64,000 nucleotides of DNA from Candidatus Helarchaeota archaeon (GTDB taxonomy: Archaea > Asgardarchaeota > Lokiarchaeia > Helarchaeales > RDOG01): assembly GCA_029838215.1 (NCBI GenBank), contig JALGVI010000012.1, positions 1 to 64,000 of the forward strand, read 5' to 3'. Positions 2,655 through 40,606 of this stretch are shown one piece after another; position 1 is the stretch's first letter; every line of letters begins with the position of its first letter. The position numbers were made by a program, and so were the translations under genes. The notes below the pieces were generated by a model. That model had not been told where the DNA came from. It searched no databases and was given only the letters and a program-made list of their open reading frames with translations.

Positions 2655-2808
2655 TTGCAAGCTTGCCATAAATTTGAACTAAAACTTCAAAATTTGCATG
2701 ATTTTTTTCTAAACCTTGCAAGCTTGCCTATTTTTTACCATCTTTTCATTAATTTTGATAAGAAAACTGAGTTTCCTATATAAATATTCCCGATTGCAAG
2801 CTTGCAAT
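2655..2808. repeat. Three copies of the palindromic motif TTGCAAGCTTGC in an intergenic region
   Basis: ttgcaagcttgcc at 2655 and 2716; perfect 16-bp palindrome attgcaagcttgcaat at 2793-2808. Confidence 0.7.
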
Positions 2809-2856
2809 TATATGACTAAAAAATAGGTAAAAAAAGAGTTTTTTAAAGGATTTTTT

Positions 2857-3579
2857 TCATTTTAGCTTCCAAATACCAATTGCGATGATCACGAGTCCCA
2901 ATGTAATGAACAAAATGCTTTGGATCTCGACATAGATCACGGTTATCACGTTGTAGAAAAGCCATTCGGCGATTCTCATCATGTTCTGCGGTTGCTCGAT
3001 TCCTCCAAGTAGCATGATGAAATAGCCAATACCCAAAGCAAGAGAAAATGATCTGATGCTACCCGAACTTTTAGCCGCAAGATAGAAGTAAACACACGGT
3101 ATGATAAATACAAGTAAGAGATTGAAGTAACTGAATGGAGGAGTAACGAACGTCAAGGCAAAATGTGTTGTCAATGCCATGATTATCATAATAGCCGTAA
3201 AAGCACAGTAGATGATCGTGAAAGCGTATTTCGTCTTTTGATTCCAGATTTGATTTTCAATTGCAAACATGAGAACGATTAAAGAAATCATCGTGAGTGC
3301 CGACCACGTGAACTCTAAACGCACTTCTATCCACGGATTTAATATGGGAATGAAATATTTGAAGATGTAATTCGTGAATAAACGTCCCAGATAGGCAACG
3401 AAATTAATAAGAAAAAACAACGCCAAACCAAGTTCGTAAATTGCCTTTGTTTCTTTCCGCTTTTCAAGGTATTTCCTGAGAAAGTATGTCGCAAAGGCGA
3501 AGACGAAACATTGATCTATGATCGTTAGGACGATGACGAGAATCGCAATTGGAATGGGAGTTGGAACGATTACTGCCAT
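2857..3579 (-). CDS. Multi-pass (about 7 TM) membrane protein of unknown function
   Basis: Hydrophobic segments throughout; layout resembles 42455..43246. Confidence 0.7.
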   Translation of the reverse strand: MAVIVPTPIPIAILVIVLTIIDQCFVFAFATYFLRKYLEKRKETKAIYELGLALFFLINFVAYLGRLFTNYIFKYFIPILNPWIEVRLEFTWSALTMISLIVLMFAIENQIWNQKTKYAFTIIYCAFTAIMIIMALTTHFALTFVTPPFSYFNLLLVFIIPCVYFYLAAKSSGSIRSFSLALGIGYFIMLLGGIEQPQNMMRIAEWLFYNVITVIYVEIQSILFITLGLVIIAIGIWKLK

Positions 3580-3939
3580 TTAAGTCACACTGCATCAAAA
3601 TCTTGAGGATTTAAAAATTGGTCCGCATTTGTTATTAAGATTTCTGTTTGATTTCAGGAAAAACAATTATTGAAACAACTTGGAATCATGAGGAGTCGTA
3701 TAAAATGGTTTTTGCAATCATTGATGTTAAGTTTGCAGGATTCTCTTTAAAAAAATTAGTTTTCGGCAATGGATTTCAATTATAATTCAAGCAAACACGG
3801 TTTTTGTCTTAAATTTTCTTTCCTAGTCGTTTTTTTAACAAAAGACATGATCATTTTCTTATCCAAGTAAAGACATATATAAGATTAATTTATGAAATTG
3901 AATCTTAGAGAGATGTAAATAGATGTCTTTAGGTGGTTA

Positions 3940-10168: not shown

Positions 10169-10981
10169 TTACGGTTTATCCCACTTCGGTCTTACAAATG
10201 GTGGATTCACGCATCTTTTTTCCGTTTGGATTGATTCTATGATCTCCAAATCTTCCGCATCCAGAGTAATGTTTAATGCATCATGACAATCTTTAATATG
10301 TGACTCGCTCGTTGCTTTTGGAATGGGAACCGCTCCGTGTTCCATTATCCATGCAAGCGATACTTGAAACTCACTAACCCTGTGCTTGCTTGCAACTTGA
10401 GATATTTCGGGATAATTCTTGATTTTTCCTCTTGCCAGCGGAGAATAAGCGACCAAATAAATATTTTTTTGGGCTTGATATTCTCGCAGCGTTTTTTGCT
10501 TTAATAGGGGATGATGTTCTACTTGGTTTGCTACAATTGGTTTATCACACGTTGCTATTGCTTCATCTAAACGTTTAATATTAAAATTCGATACTCCCAC
10601 ATGCTTGATCTTGCCTTCATCTACCAATTCACTGAAGGCAGCTAAAGTCTTGTTTGCTTTATAAAAAAATGGCATCGGCCAATGAACATATAATAGGTCA
10701 ACATTATCAAGCCGGAGCTTTTCTAAACTTTGGTACGTACTTTTCTTAACGCTTTTCGGTCTAAGCTTATGAATCCATACTTTTGTCGCAATGATTAGAT
10801 CCTTACGATCAATTGTTGCTTCGGCTAATGCTGCCCCTACTTGTGATTCGTTTCCATAAGCCTGAGCAGTGTCAATGTGCCTAAATCCAATATCAATGGC
10901 TTTTAATACCGATTTCGTGCAGGTTTCGCCCTTTAATTGCCAAGTTCCAAAACCGATTCTTGGAAGTTTTAATTCTGCCAT
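10169..10981 (-). CDS. Aldo/keto reductase
   Basis: GFRHIDTAQAYGNE, VDLLYVHWPMP, IKHVGVSNF, VAYSPLARG, GAVPIPKAT. Confidence 0.95.
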   Translation of the reverse strand: MAELKLPRIGFGTWQLKGETCTKSVLKAIDIGFRHIDTAQAYGNESQVGAALAEATIDRKDLIIATKVWIHKLRPKSVKKSTYQSLEKLRLDNVDLLYVHWPMPFFYKANKTLAAFSELVDEGKIKHVGVSNFNIKRLDEAIATCDKPIVANQVEHHPLLKQKTLREYQAQKNIYLVAYSPLARGKIKNYPEISQVASKHRVSEFQVSLAWIMEHGAVPIPKATSESHIKDCHDALNITLDAEDLEIIESIQTEKRCVNPPFVRPKWDKP

Positions 10982-11091
10982 TCAAGTCACTTTTTGTTAA
11001 ATCTTTTATAATAATCGTATTTTAAAATTGATCATTCAGTTTTAATGCAATTCGCAAGATTTAAAAGTAATTAGAAAAAAAATGAGGTTTT

Positions 11092-11351
11092 TTAATCGCT
11101 TCGGAGCAATTTTATGATGAAAATTGCAAATATAGCGTACACCGGAATCTGGATGAGAACAATCAGAAATAATAGCTCAAAGATATTGAGGGGATATGGT
11201 CCCGCTACTTGTCCATCATACCACGGACCAAAAGGATATGCGAATGGCCAAAAGCAAAAACAATGAGACCGGCAATCACGTTTGCAATCCAGAACCCGAA
11301 GAAACCTAACAGTGGAATTATTATGAATTTTTTATCCTTCACGTCGGCCAT
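11092..11351 (-). pseudogene. Small 2-TM membrane protein gene with an apparent 1-nt frameshift; partner of the upstream CruF-like gene
   Basis: Frame 1: MADVKDKKFIIIPLLGFFGFWIANVIAGLIVF; shifted frame: CFWPFAYPFGPWYDGQVAGPYPLNIFELLFLIVLIQIPVYAIFAIFIIKLLRSD*. One extra T in the T5 run (11256-11260) joins them. Resembles 12310..12552 in length and layout. Confidence 0.65.
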
Positions 11352-11352
11352 G

Positions 11353-12135
11353 TCATATGCCTCCAAAAGTGATATTATATCCCCAGAATGGCGTTAGTGC
11401 TAAGACGATCGTTAATCCTCCTACCAGAAAAATTGTTCCAATTTCTAACATCAGCAATAAAGGATAAAACGCAACTATCGTCCATTTCTTGCCAATCTTC
11501 TCTTCAAGTCCACAAATTTTTGGCCAAAACATAGCAAAACACGAAATCAAGATCCACCAACCGATGAAATTCGAAATCGGTATGCCAAGAATGCATAGCG
11601 CTTCACCCGGCGTGTTCAACCAGTACCAGTTACGAAGTCGTGTTTGAAAAGGATCAATCATCAAGTCCATGACCATGGCAAGTAGCCCGCACAGGACCGA
11701 TTTAATGACCAATCCTTTATTTCCTTCCACGTTGTTAAAGATGTAATCCATAATCTCATAGGAAGAATAGGCAATAACGAACCATGCAACGCAGACAACA
11801 ATAGGAACTGCCATGAACCAAAGCGTATAGGCATGATAGTTGAACTGATATGTATTTTGTGTTGGTATGAAATATCCTGCAACTATCATGAAATTCTCTT
11901 CCAATCCCGTATACACGAAAGACCCCGAAAAGAAAAGTAACATCTTCCAAAGGTCATACTTCTTCGACCCGTGATATATTAGCATTATTGCAATGCCATA
12001 GGTCATCGCATCCATGATCCAGACACCAGGGTTCGTGAGGAGCATCGTCACTATGTAAAATGGCTTGATTGGAAGAAAAAAGAATTCAAAAAAGAATGGT
12101 TGATAACTCGTCATTCTCGAAGCCCTCAGAAACAT
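11353..12135 (-). CDS. CruF-like (DUF422-type) carotenoid biosynthesis membrane protein
   Basis: DLMIDPFQTRLRNWYWLNTPGEALCILGIPISNFIGWWIL: DxxxDP...GIPxSNFxGW pattern; paralogue of 12563..13300. Confidence 0.6.
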   Translation of the reverse strand: MFLRASRMTSYQPFFFEFFFLPIKPFYIVTMLLTNPGVWIMDAMTYGIAIMLIYHGSKKYDLWKMLLFFSGSFVYTGLEENFMIVAGYFIPTQNTYQFNYHAYTLWFMAVPIVVCVAWFVIAYSSYEIMDYIFNNVEGNKGLVIKSVLCGLLAMVMDLMIDPFQTRLRNWYWLNTPGEALCILGIPISNFIGWWILISCFAMFWPKICGLEEKIGKKWTIVAFYPLLLMLEIGTIFLVGGLTIVLALTPFWGYNITFGGI

Positions 12136-12309
12136 GTTTTAGAATTAAAATCAACTTACTTCTCCTTTTTAATCTTTCCTTATTTGTTTAAATTTGCATT
12201 ATTCATGCATAGAGAGAATTTGATATCTGCATGCGAAATTTGAAAAAAAAGACAAGATAAAAGGAATGCAGGACAGATCTTGGAGCTCGGATGGATGACC
12301 GTCTCGTGT

Positions 12310-37983: not shown

Positions 37984-38280
37984 CAAAGATTCTTTTCTTT
38001 TTATCATTTCGGACTAATTGATCATCCCTCCATTTTAAATTTCATCAACAAATTTGACTGGCAGCATTCAAAATCTAAACATTTTAAAGAAGGAAAATTA
38101 ATCTATCAAAGGAATTTATGAATTATGCCTATAAATTCTTCCTGAATAATGAAATTAAGGAGATCTAAATAAGGAAATCGAGCTTGCGGGGAAGTATTTC
38201 TCAAGTTCGAGCAGGATTTCTAATAATTACAAAAAAATTCAGGGCGAAGGAAGAAAGTAAGATCATTTAGGTGATATGTC

Positions 38281-39495
38281 ATGAGCGTTATTCCGATGCA
38301 TGACTTTTTTGAAGAAATTAAAGAAGAAAAAACATTGACGATGACGGGAAATTATGCGGTGGCAGGCGCAGTTACGCAGACAGAGCCAGATGTTATTTGT
38401 GCTTTTCCCATTACGCCTCAGACACAATCAGTAGAAGGACTAAGCGACGTGGTTAATCATGGACGTTTAAAAGCGGCATTTGTGAATGTCGAAAGTGAAC
38501 TGGCAGCCATTTCATACATTACTGCCGCCGTTATTGCAGGAGCTCGCGGCTTTACGGCGACGGCTTCTCAAGGATATCTATTAATGCACGAAGGACTCCC
38601 CATGGCAGTTGGATGGCGAGCACCGATATACATGCTCATCTCAAACCGCGCGTGGAATGCCCCTAACCTGAGTATTTGGAACAGTTGGGAAGTCACGCTG
38701 GCAGATCACGGCTGGAACAAGATTTTTTCAGAAAACGTCCAAGAAACTTATGATGCAGCAATTCTTAGTTGCATGATATCAGAAAAAACACTTTTTCCGA
38801 CCTGTTTCTGTCATGATGGGTTTATCATTTCCCATTCGGCACAAAAATTCAAGGCAATCCCTGACGAGACCGTGAAGAAACTCACACCTCGCCGACCCAG
38901 GCATACCGTGCGAACGGATAATCCCGGCTGTTGGGGAGGTATAGTCACACCGGATTACTTCATGGAACAACGTCGCGCCTTGGATTTGGCAAAGAAAGAT
39001 GTCCCTAAAGAAATCGATGCAATGTTTGACCTGTTTGCGAAGGAAACGGGAAGAAAATATTCGTCAATTGAAACCTTTAACATTGAAAAGGCGAAAACCG
39101 CAATAGTCACGATGGGTTCCATGTGCGGAACGATAAAACAATGGATGCGAAATGTTCCCGATATCGGACTCATCAAGATACGAACTTATCGTCCATTTCC
39201 TAGCGAAAGACTACGAAAAATTATTGAAGATAATAAAATTGAAAAATTGATAGTGCTTGAGAAAAATGATGCACCGGGCGCGCCCGTACCTCAAGTCACG
39301 CAAACGATCCTCCCCGTAACTTATCCGCTCGGCACGATCGTTCATTCTTTTATACCCGGGCTCGGTGGAAGAGACGTGACTGTTGATGAGCTTAATGCTG
39401 CAAAGAAACGAATGGAAAAGATTAACGACATGAAAGGAGACCTGTACGAATACTTGGGTGTCCGAATAAAACAAGGAGTGATTGAAGGAGAGTAG
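38281..39495 (+). CDS. porA: Pyruvate:ferredoxin oxidoreductase alpha-type subunit
   Basis: TMTGNYAVAGAVTQTEPDVICAFPITPQTQSVEGL, VNVESELAAISYITAAVIAGARGFTATASQGYLLMHEGLPMAVG. Confidence 0.93.
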   Translation: MSVIPMHDFFEEIKEEKTLTMTGNYAVAGAVTQTEPDVICAFPITPQTQSVEGLSDVVNHGRLKAAFVNVESELAAISYITAAVIAGARGFTATASQGYLLMHEGLPMAVGWRAPIYMLISNRAWNAPNLSIWNSWEVTLADHGWNKIFSENVQETYDAAILSCMISEKTLFPTCFCHDGFIISHSAQKFKAIPDETVKKLTPRRPRHTVRTDNPGCWGGIVTPDYFMEQRRALDLAKKDVPKEIDAMFDLFAKETGRKYSSIETFNIEKAKTAIVTMGSMCGTIKQWMRNVPDIGLIKIRTYRPFPSERLRKIIEDNKIEKLIVLEKNDAPGAPVPQVTQTILPVTYPLGTIVHSFIPGLGGRDVTVDELNAAKKRMEKINDMKGDLYEYLGVRIKQGVIEGE

Positions 39496-39499
39496 AACA

Positions 39500-40606
39500 A
39501 TGTCTTTAGAACAAAAATTTAAAGCTCGAGTCATTAAAGTCAAGGACATCCTTTCTTGGAAAACCAATAACTACCTGCTTTATTTCAACTATGATAATGA
39601 AGCATTCATGAACACGGGGATTCAAGAATCCGGTTCGACACCCTTTGGAGCTTCCACGACAACAGGACCTGCAGGAAAAGCCATTCCGGGAAAGATTGGC
39701 ATGAAACAAGACATCATAGAAGGATTTGCTTTTCTCGGCATGCAATCTGCATTCCTTGCTACGGCCTCAACCGCTTATCCTGCAGATTTTATCGGAAAAG
39801 TCGTCGAAGCATTAAAAACACCAGGAGCCGCTTTCATTCAGGTCTTGGCATCATGCGACCGCGGATGGCGCCATCCGATTAACATCTCCAATAAGGTGAA
39901 CAAGCTTGCAGTAGATTCTGGTTTCTGGCCTTTATACACGATTCGCGTTAAAAATGGGCGTCCCACGTATGCACTGAATAAAAAGATAAATTATGATACG
40001 ATGGAAGAAAAACTCATTGAATACTTGAACCTCATGGGACGTTTCCGTCACTTGGTTAAACCTGAATTCAAGGAACAAACAATACCTTTAGTTATTGATG
40101 CAGTCAAGGCGCGTGCTGATAATGTCATTAAACTAGTTAATACATTCGGTAATCCAGAACATCAACTAGAAACATACACCGTGAACTTCAAGGAGATTCC
40201 GCCACAAGAGATCTTGAATCCAGGACATGGACTATGTCAGGGCTGTGGGTGCGGCATGGCTTTAAATCAATTATCTCTTGCAGCTCATTGGGTCGCAGGA
40301 AAAAATATCATCGTGACCAATAACACGTCATGTTCTGAAGTCTCATTCTCGAAAGATGATGTTCCTAATTATAAAGTGCCTTGGGTTCACCACTTGTTTG
40401 AAACATGTGCCACGACCGGCGATGCCATTGCAACAACATACAGGATCTTAAAAGCAAAAGGTCTCTACAAAGGAGAAATCCCAAGAGTGATCGCCATTGG
40501 TGGAGATGGCTCCACTTATGATATAGGATTTCAATTTCTAAAAGCAGCACTTCATCGAGCCGGAACATTTGGCATCATGAACCCACTCATCAAGGACATT
40601 AGCTGA
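39500..40606 (+). CDS. porB: Pyruvate:ferredoxin oxidoreductase beta-type subunit, circularly permuted
   Basis: N-terminal part YLLYFNYDNEAFMNTGIQESGSTPFGASTTTGPAGK...QVLASCDRGW...MGRFRHL is the usual C-terminal half; C-terminal part NPGHGLCQGCGCGMAL...TNNTSCSEVS...IAIGGDGSTYDIGFQFLKAALHRAG is the usual N-terminal half. ATG at 39500 follows gaaggagag. Confidence 0.85.
   Translation: MSLEQKFKARVIKVKDILSWKTNNYLLYFNYDNEAFMNTGIQESGSTPFGASTTTGPAGKAIPGKIGMKQDIIEGFAFLGMQSAFLATASTAYPADFIGKVVEALKTPGAAFIQVLASCDRGWRHPINISNKVNKLAVDSGFWPLYTIRVKNGRPTYALNKKINYDTMEEKLIEYLNLMGRFRHLVKPEFKEQTIPLVIDAVKARADNVIKLVNTFGNPEHQLETYTVNFKEIPPQEILNPGHGLCQGCGCGMALNQLSLAAHWVAGKNIIVTNNTSCSEVSFSKDDVPNYKVPWVHHLFETCATTGDAIATTYRILKAKGLYKGEIPRVIAIGGDGSTYDIGFQFLKAALHRAGTFGIMNPLIKDIS

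Follow-up and report, generated by a model that had tools for sequence, protein, structure and literature searches.

A circularly permuted PorB-type beta subunit of a predicted 2-oxoacid:ferredoxin oxidoreductase is conserved across the archaeal class Lokiarchaeia

The 2-oxoacid:ferredoxin oxidoreductases (OFORs) are ancient enzymes, central to anaerobic energy metabolism, in which Mg-ThDP is held by a GDG motif and a downstream asparagine, and a proximal [4Fe-4S] cluster is bound by four cysteines. The Lokiarchaeia, in which the gene described here was found, are Asgard archaea and are related to the ancestors of eukaryotes. Published work gives 2-oxoacid oxidation a central place in the metabolism of Asgard archaea (PMC7015854). 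The closest described counterparts of this gene product are PorB of the four-subunit pyruvate:ferredoxin oxidoreductase (PFOR), represented by the NCBIfam model NF008819 and by chain 9bt4_C of Methanosarcina acetivorans, and the beta subunit of the oxalate oxidoreductase (OOR) of Moorella thermoacetica (5c4i). Saposin/swaposin and the transhydrogenases display the same topological change as the one reported below and share the same two models for its origin; such models have been reviewed (PMC3320104), ferredoxin or thiamine enzymes are absent from that review, and no description of a permuted PFOR or ThDP enzyme was found in the open-access literature searched.

The gene, here named cp-porB, lies in a stretch of 64,000 nucleotides from a Candidatus Helarchaeota archaeon (GCA_029838215.1, contig JALGVI010000012.1; hereafter the window), and its features are collected in Table 1. 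Its product shares with the PorB of M. acetivorans all of the segments, the catalytic motif, the four cysteines and the partners alpha, gamma and delta, but its halves are reversed, its old termini are joined and it has acquired new extensions at both ends, of about 22 residues at the N-terminus and 15 at the C-terminus. Judged from sequence, cp-PorB is very probably the beta subunit of a PorA/PorB-type OFOR, binding ThDP and the proximal [4Fe-4S] cluster, which was permuted once in or before the ancestor of the Lokiarchaeia.

Table 1. Features of cp-porB and of its partner gene; positions are those of the window and residues those of cp-PorB.
Feature	Positions	Strand	Remarks
Partner OFOR/PorA alpha subunit	38281..39495	+	404 aa; Pfam POR_N + PFOR_II
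cp-PorB (circularly permuted OFOR/PorB beta subunit)	39500..40606	+	368 aa; ATG start, intact, no frameshift
New N-terminal extension, residues 1-22	39500..39565	+	
ThDP/Mg motif, part with YDNEAFMNTG, residues 31-40	39590..39619	+	invariant in 52 relatives
C119, cluster cysteine (ASCDRGW)	39854..39856	+	fourth cysteine in canonical order
Junction of old ends, H184 up to C246	40049..40234	+	62 aa; old C-terminal helix joined to old N-terminal head
C246-x-x-C249, cluster cysteines	40235..40246	+	old N-terminal half
C278, cluster cysteine (TSC)	40331..40333	+	
ThDP/Mg motif, part with GDG, residues 335-337	40502..40510	+	now near the C-terminus
New C-terminal tail, residues 354-368	40559..40603	+	

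When the unrotated protein was compared with PDB chains by phmmer, PFOR beta (9bt4_C) was matched in two stretches of swapped order, query residues 234-354 corresponding to chain residues 5-116 and residues 26-198 to 119-282; two swapped stretches were likewise found with OOR beta (5c4i_C), and the NCBIfam PorB model (NF008819) also matched in two separate stretches. Following rotation in silico at residue 213, with most of both new end extensions left out, the match to PFOR beta became single and unbroken (query 22-317 to chain 5-281) and scored 165.5 bits as opposed to 149.3 unrotated, whilst the NCBIfam PorB match became one stretch and rose from 220 to 235 bits; the rotated score against OOR beta was equal, at 165.6 bits. 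In alignment with canonical betas the rotated protein runs colinear with them over its length, starting at the old N-terminal head and ending at the old C-terminal helix. The homology therefore spans the whole PorB domain, as two swapped stretches or, once rotated, as one, and since the segments do not follow the canonical N-to-C order cp-PorB is a permuted variant rather than an ordinary member of the PorB type.

The break falls between ALHRAG and NYLLYFNYDNEA. GDG and DNE, separated by 28 residues in almost all canonical proteins, stand at opposite ends of the chain in cp-PorB, and by this alignment the opening of the chain lies at the turn that links the helix following GDG to the strand preceding DNEAFMNTG; the new termini are expected at a turn leading into a strand, remote from the catalytic end of the sheet. 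A sequence-only reading of the gene had anticipated much of this, proposing a PorB with exchanged halves, cut between ALxRG and LYxxYDNE and carrying GDG and YDNEA at opposite ends; the swapped matches, their union upon rotation, the position of the break and the location of the two motifs (residues 335-337 and 32-40) all agree with it, as does the alignment to PorB structures that it had suggested, in which each half finds its counterpart in 9bt4_C and 5c4i_C with the order swapped.

Across 52 distinct cp-PorB sequences GDG (335-337), D341, DNEAFMNTGIQES (32-44), C119, C246, C249 and C278 are invariant. The GDG...N motif for ThDP/Mg binding is hence present in cp-PorB, DNEAFMNTG occupying residues 32-40, and so are the four cysteines of the proximal [4Fe-4S] cluster, whose retention had been noted from the window alone. 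Omega (dN/dS) has a median of 0.06 in close pairs, which points to strong purifying selection on cp-porB and, together with the invariant catalytic residues, supports the earlier view of a functional gene rather than one in decay. Two changes near the active site are specific to the permuted group: NTGIQES, invariant, where canonical proteins have NTGIQRS, and TSC-(S/L)EV-STSKDN where they have TGC-LEV-ATTIYPY. These changes may denote a different pocket.

An AlphaFold2 model of cp-PorB built with the 52 relatives reached a pTM of 0.86 and a pLDDT of 78, low confidence in the monomer being confined to the cofactor-facing (ThDP) loops and the extreme N-terminus; within the N-terminal extension a short strand and helix at residues ~10-18 were modelled confidently. 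Foldseek, by sequential alignment, ranked PFOR beta and OOR beta first, as partial matches with a TM of 0.46 normalised by target, and gave 0.81 for an Asgard control without the permutation, whose model drew on only 14 sequences; such a difference is as a permutation would produce with a sequential aligner.

A profile search of 392 relatives (E<=1e-60) found cp-PorB matches confined to the Lokiarchaeia. In the phylum set the gene is present in 66 of the 83 Lokiarchaeia genomes and in none of 144 genomes from other classes, in which the best matches are half-matches to canonical beta; most genomes of the class yield full-length colinear matches at 52-67% identity. The carriers comprise Lokiarchaeota, Helarchaeota and Sigynarchaeota and include every sampled family save one (f2, a single genome), which makes an origin in the ancestor of the class probable. 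On this distribution cp-PorB is an ancient trait conserved across the Lokiarchaeia, and cp-porB serves as a clean marker of the class. It is not essential, as 17 of the 83 genomes, some rated about 98-99% complete, are without it. One apparent occurrence outside the class, in a genome titled Bathyarchaeota (L042), was rejected: its sequence groups in the Sigynarchaeota rows of the tree and the genome collection places it in the Lokiarchaeia, and it is probably a mislabelled bin.

The alpha gene directly precedes cp-porB in the window, and in relatives cp-porB is always immediately 3' of alpha wherever the contig includes the latter, the conserved operon order being gammadelta-alpha-cpbeta with gamma and delta fused. 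In the genome of the window gammadelta is found on contig C103, 61% identical to a relative's copy, which makes the subunit set complete. Positions 37984-38280 of the window are devoid of gammadelta; in the closest relative (L041, 2812-3786) it lies between a CBS-domain gene and alpha. The canonical VOR/POR-like operons of the Lokiarchaeia belong to the same enzyme superfamily and occur in the same genomes (in that of the window, G000, on contigs C86 and C29), but they are unpermuted, keep gamma and delta separate and form a distinct clade with 100% support.

cp-PorB is most likely the working ThDP/[4Fe-4S] subunit of an extra 2-oxoacid:ferredoxin oxidoreductase, probably of the pyruvate type. 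In the mechanism we propose, cp-PorB would refold into an ordinary PorB domain and pair with the adjacent alpha, which would supply the PYR domain, and with the fused gamma-delta; ThDP-Mg would be bound between GDG and DNEAFMNTG, a 2-oxoacid, with pyruvate or a closely related compound the likeliest, would be decarboxylated and released as acyl-CoA, and the electrons would pass from the protein's own four-cysteine cluster to the clusters of delta and on to ferredoxin.

As to the origin of the permutation, the junction between H184 and C246 measures 61-62 aa in cp-PorB, and canonical betas have 32-39 residues C-terminal of that histidine and, ahead of the CxxC, typically 18-29 (40 in one outlier); the junction is thus about as long as a canonical tail plus head, as expected of an end-to-end fusion. 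At the sequence level, then, cp-PorB shows the old C-terminus joined to the old N-terminus. The permuted group forms one clade with 100% support in the tree of joined sequences, in the tree of each half and in that of alpha, whose trees run parallel to those of cp-PorB; this is most simply read as a single event, no later than the common ancestor of the Lokiarchaeia. Outside the class, the unpermuted relatives that come closest sit in gamma-delta-alpha-beta operons of other Asgard lineages. The course we favour as probable is that the gene was duplicated in tandem, the copies fused in frame and the product trimmed at both ends. Fission of the gene, with the half-genes re-fused in the other order to the same product and function, would yield an identical junction, and the new ends bear unrelated extensions rather than duplicate remnants (none was detected in the N-extension or the C-tail, p = 0.69 and 0.75, and residues 1-22 have no detectable similarity to canonical PorB), hence the ends do not distinguish the two courses. 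However, separate functional genes for the two halves were not encountered in any genome, and the partial downstream copies at some loci (L077, L101 etc.), considered as ancestral halves, proved to be secondary copies of the 3' end of the permuted gene; fission and re-fusion is accordingly rated as unlikely. A chimera of halves from two different beta genes, fused in unusual order, is far less probable still: the several PorB/KorB paralogues of these genomes would supply the material, but the separate half-trees, which agree in their broad grouping and each recover a single clade at 100/100, reject it, and the rotated alignment is uniform with both old tails complete in the junction. An assembly artefact or pseudogene might be suspected in a window taken from a 170-contig MAG; the probability of this is negligible, as the order recurs in tens of independent assemblies and in two single-contig chromosomes (G023 and G044), with the low omega and invariant catalytic residues given above. 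Neither of the two things which the sequence-only reading had named as speaking against it was found, whether a join in the assembly or an unbroken porB of canonical order at the locus, the canonical paralogues lying elsewhere in the genome.

The identity of the substrate is a more even matter. Alpha retains the threonine of PITPQT, the glutamate of VESE and the arginine of NRA as in PFOR, and has a PFOR-like PITP where OOR has PIRP, OOR also differing in that its beta is not permuted. The best family models are PorA for alpha and PorB for the permuted beta, although the curated cut-offs (NF008819 / NF040682) are missed, with 235 bits of 405 for rotated beta, about half of the curated score, and 307 of 550 for alpha, which accounts for the poor annotation of cp-porB. 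From these features we consider a pyruvate-type substrate slightly the better supported prospect. It could well be, with a probability that falls somewhat short of even, that the permuted complex is real and acts upon another 2-oxoacid (2-oxobutyrate, branched or aromatic) by way of altered pocket residues; the class-specific active-site changes and the unmet PorA/PorB cut-offs favour this, whereas the PFOR-like residues of alpha and the best models speak for pyruvate, as do the canonical paralogues on C86 and C29, which score best as the 3-methyl-2-oxobutanoate (VOR) type and so leave the pyruvate role over. The neighbourhood beyond the operon (enoyl-CoA hydratase, YjbQ-like and transporter genes) does not settle the substrate.

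In four species lineages, G157 (L083/L175), G005 (L092/L173), G156 (L093/L140/L176) and G055 (L099/L174), an insert of 30-31 nt, absent from the cp-porB of the window, breaks the frame within NTG|IQES, bringing a stop or frameshift just after the YDNEAFMNTG codons, among the most conserved active-site codons of the gene. Its removal restores the invariant NTGIQES, in three of the four lineages by only a single choice of the two cut sites, and every insert contains a hairpin of 7-9 bp. That of G055, situated 6 nt downstream of the other three, folds as a bulge-helix-bulge (BHB) with a z of -3.9, in which the exon-exon helix has 7 bp, the second helix (UCCA/UGGA) 4 bp, and the two bulges 3 nt, with AG^G, and 4 nt, with AA^AA; the other three folds are less regular than this, and that of G156 is no better than shuffles (z -0.5). 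The inserts look like pre-mRNA introns cut out by the tRNA-splicing endonuclease (EndA). Archaeal pre-mRNA introns of this kind are known mainly from cbf5 (PMC2738675), and the putative cp-porB introns would join, as candidates, the very few BHB introns on record in protein-coding genes of archaea.

A broader proposal is that the permuted beta and the fused gamma-delta constitute a distinct, Lokiarchaeia-specific OFOR, in which the relocated termini have taken on a new role (in assembly, in contact with gammadelta or in the use of a different substrate), which is the main pyruvate-type enzyme of the class and whose mRNA in some species needs tRNA-type (BHB) splicing in active-site codons; this is speculative and, taken as a whole, doubtful. 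What is new here, as far as the open-access literature searched allows, is that the permutation is ancient and conserved across an entire class of archaea. A permutation that splits the ThDP motif, and that is class-wide and strongly selected, suggests that the core of such an enzyme can be rewired, and cp-PorB offers a natural test of the links among fold topology, assembly and electron transfer.

Several further observations were made at related loci. Incomplete copies of the gene, covering its 3' end, were found at L019/L051 (2079-2231), L067 (6123-6269), L095 (2936-3085), L077 (3596-3946) and L101/L139 (1294-1638), lying 0.7-2.5 kb downstream of cp-porB, several of them set apart by VapC/PIN-like toxin genes, and the 3' end of the gene looks like a recurrent insertion hotspot. 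At L169 (G143; 2795-3612) a HEPN/MNT-like pair, of the toxin-antitoxin type as judged by sequence, follows directly after alpha in the place expected of the permuted beta. At L137 (G033; 10671-12161) an ORF of 496 aa encodes a PorB of canonical order 5 kb from cp-porB, and bears an N-terminal extension with a ferredoxin-like Cys motif just ahead of the PorB part, a possible fusion.
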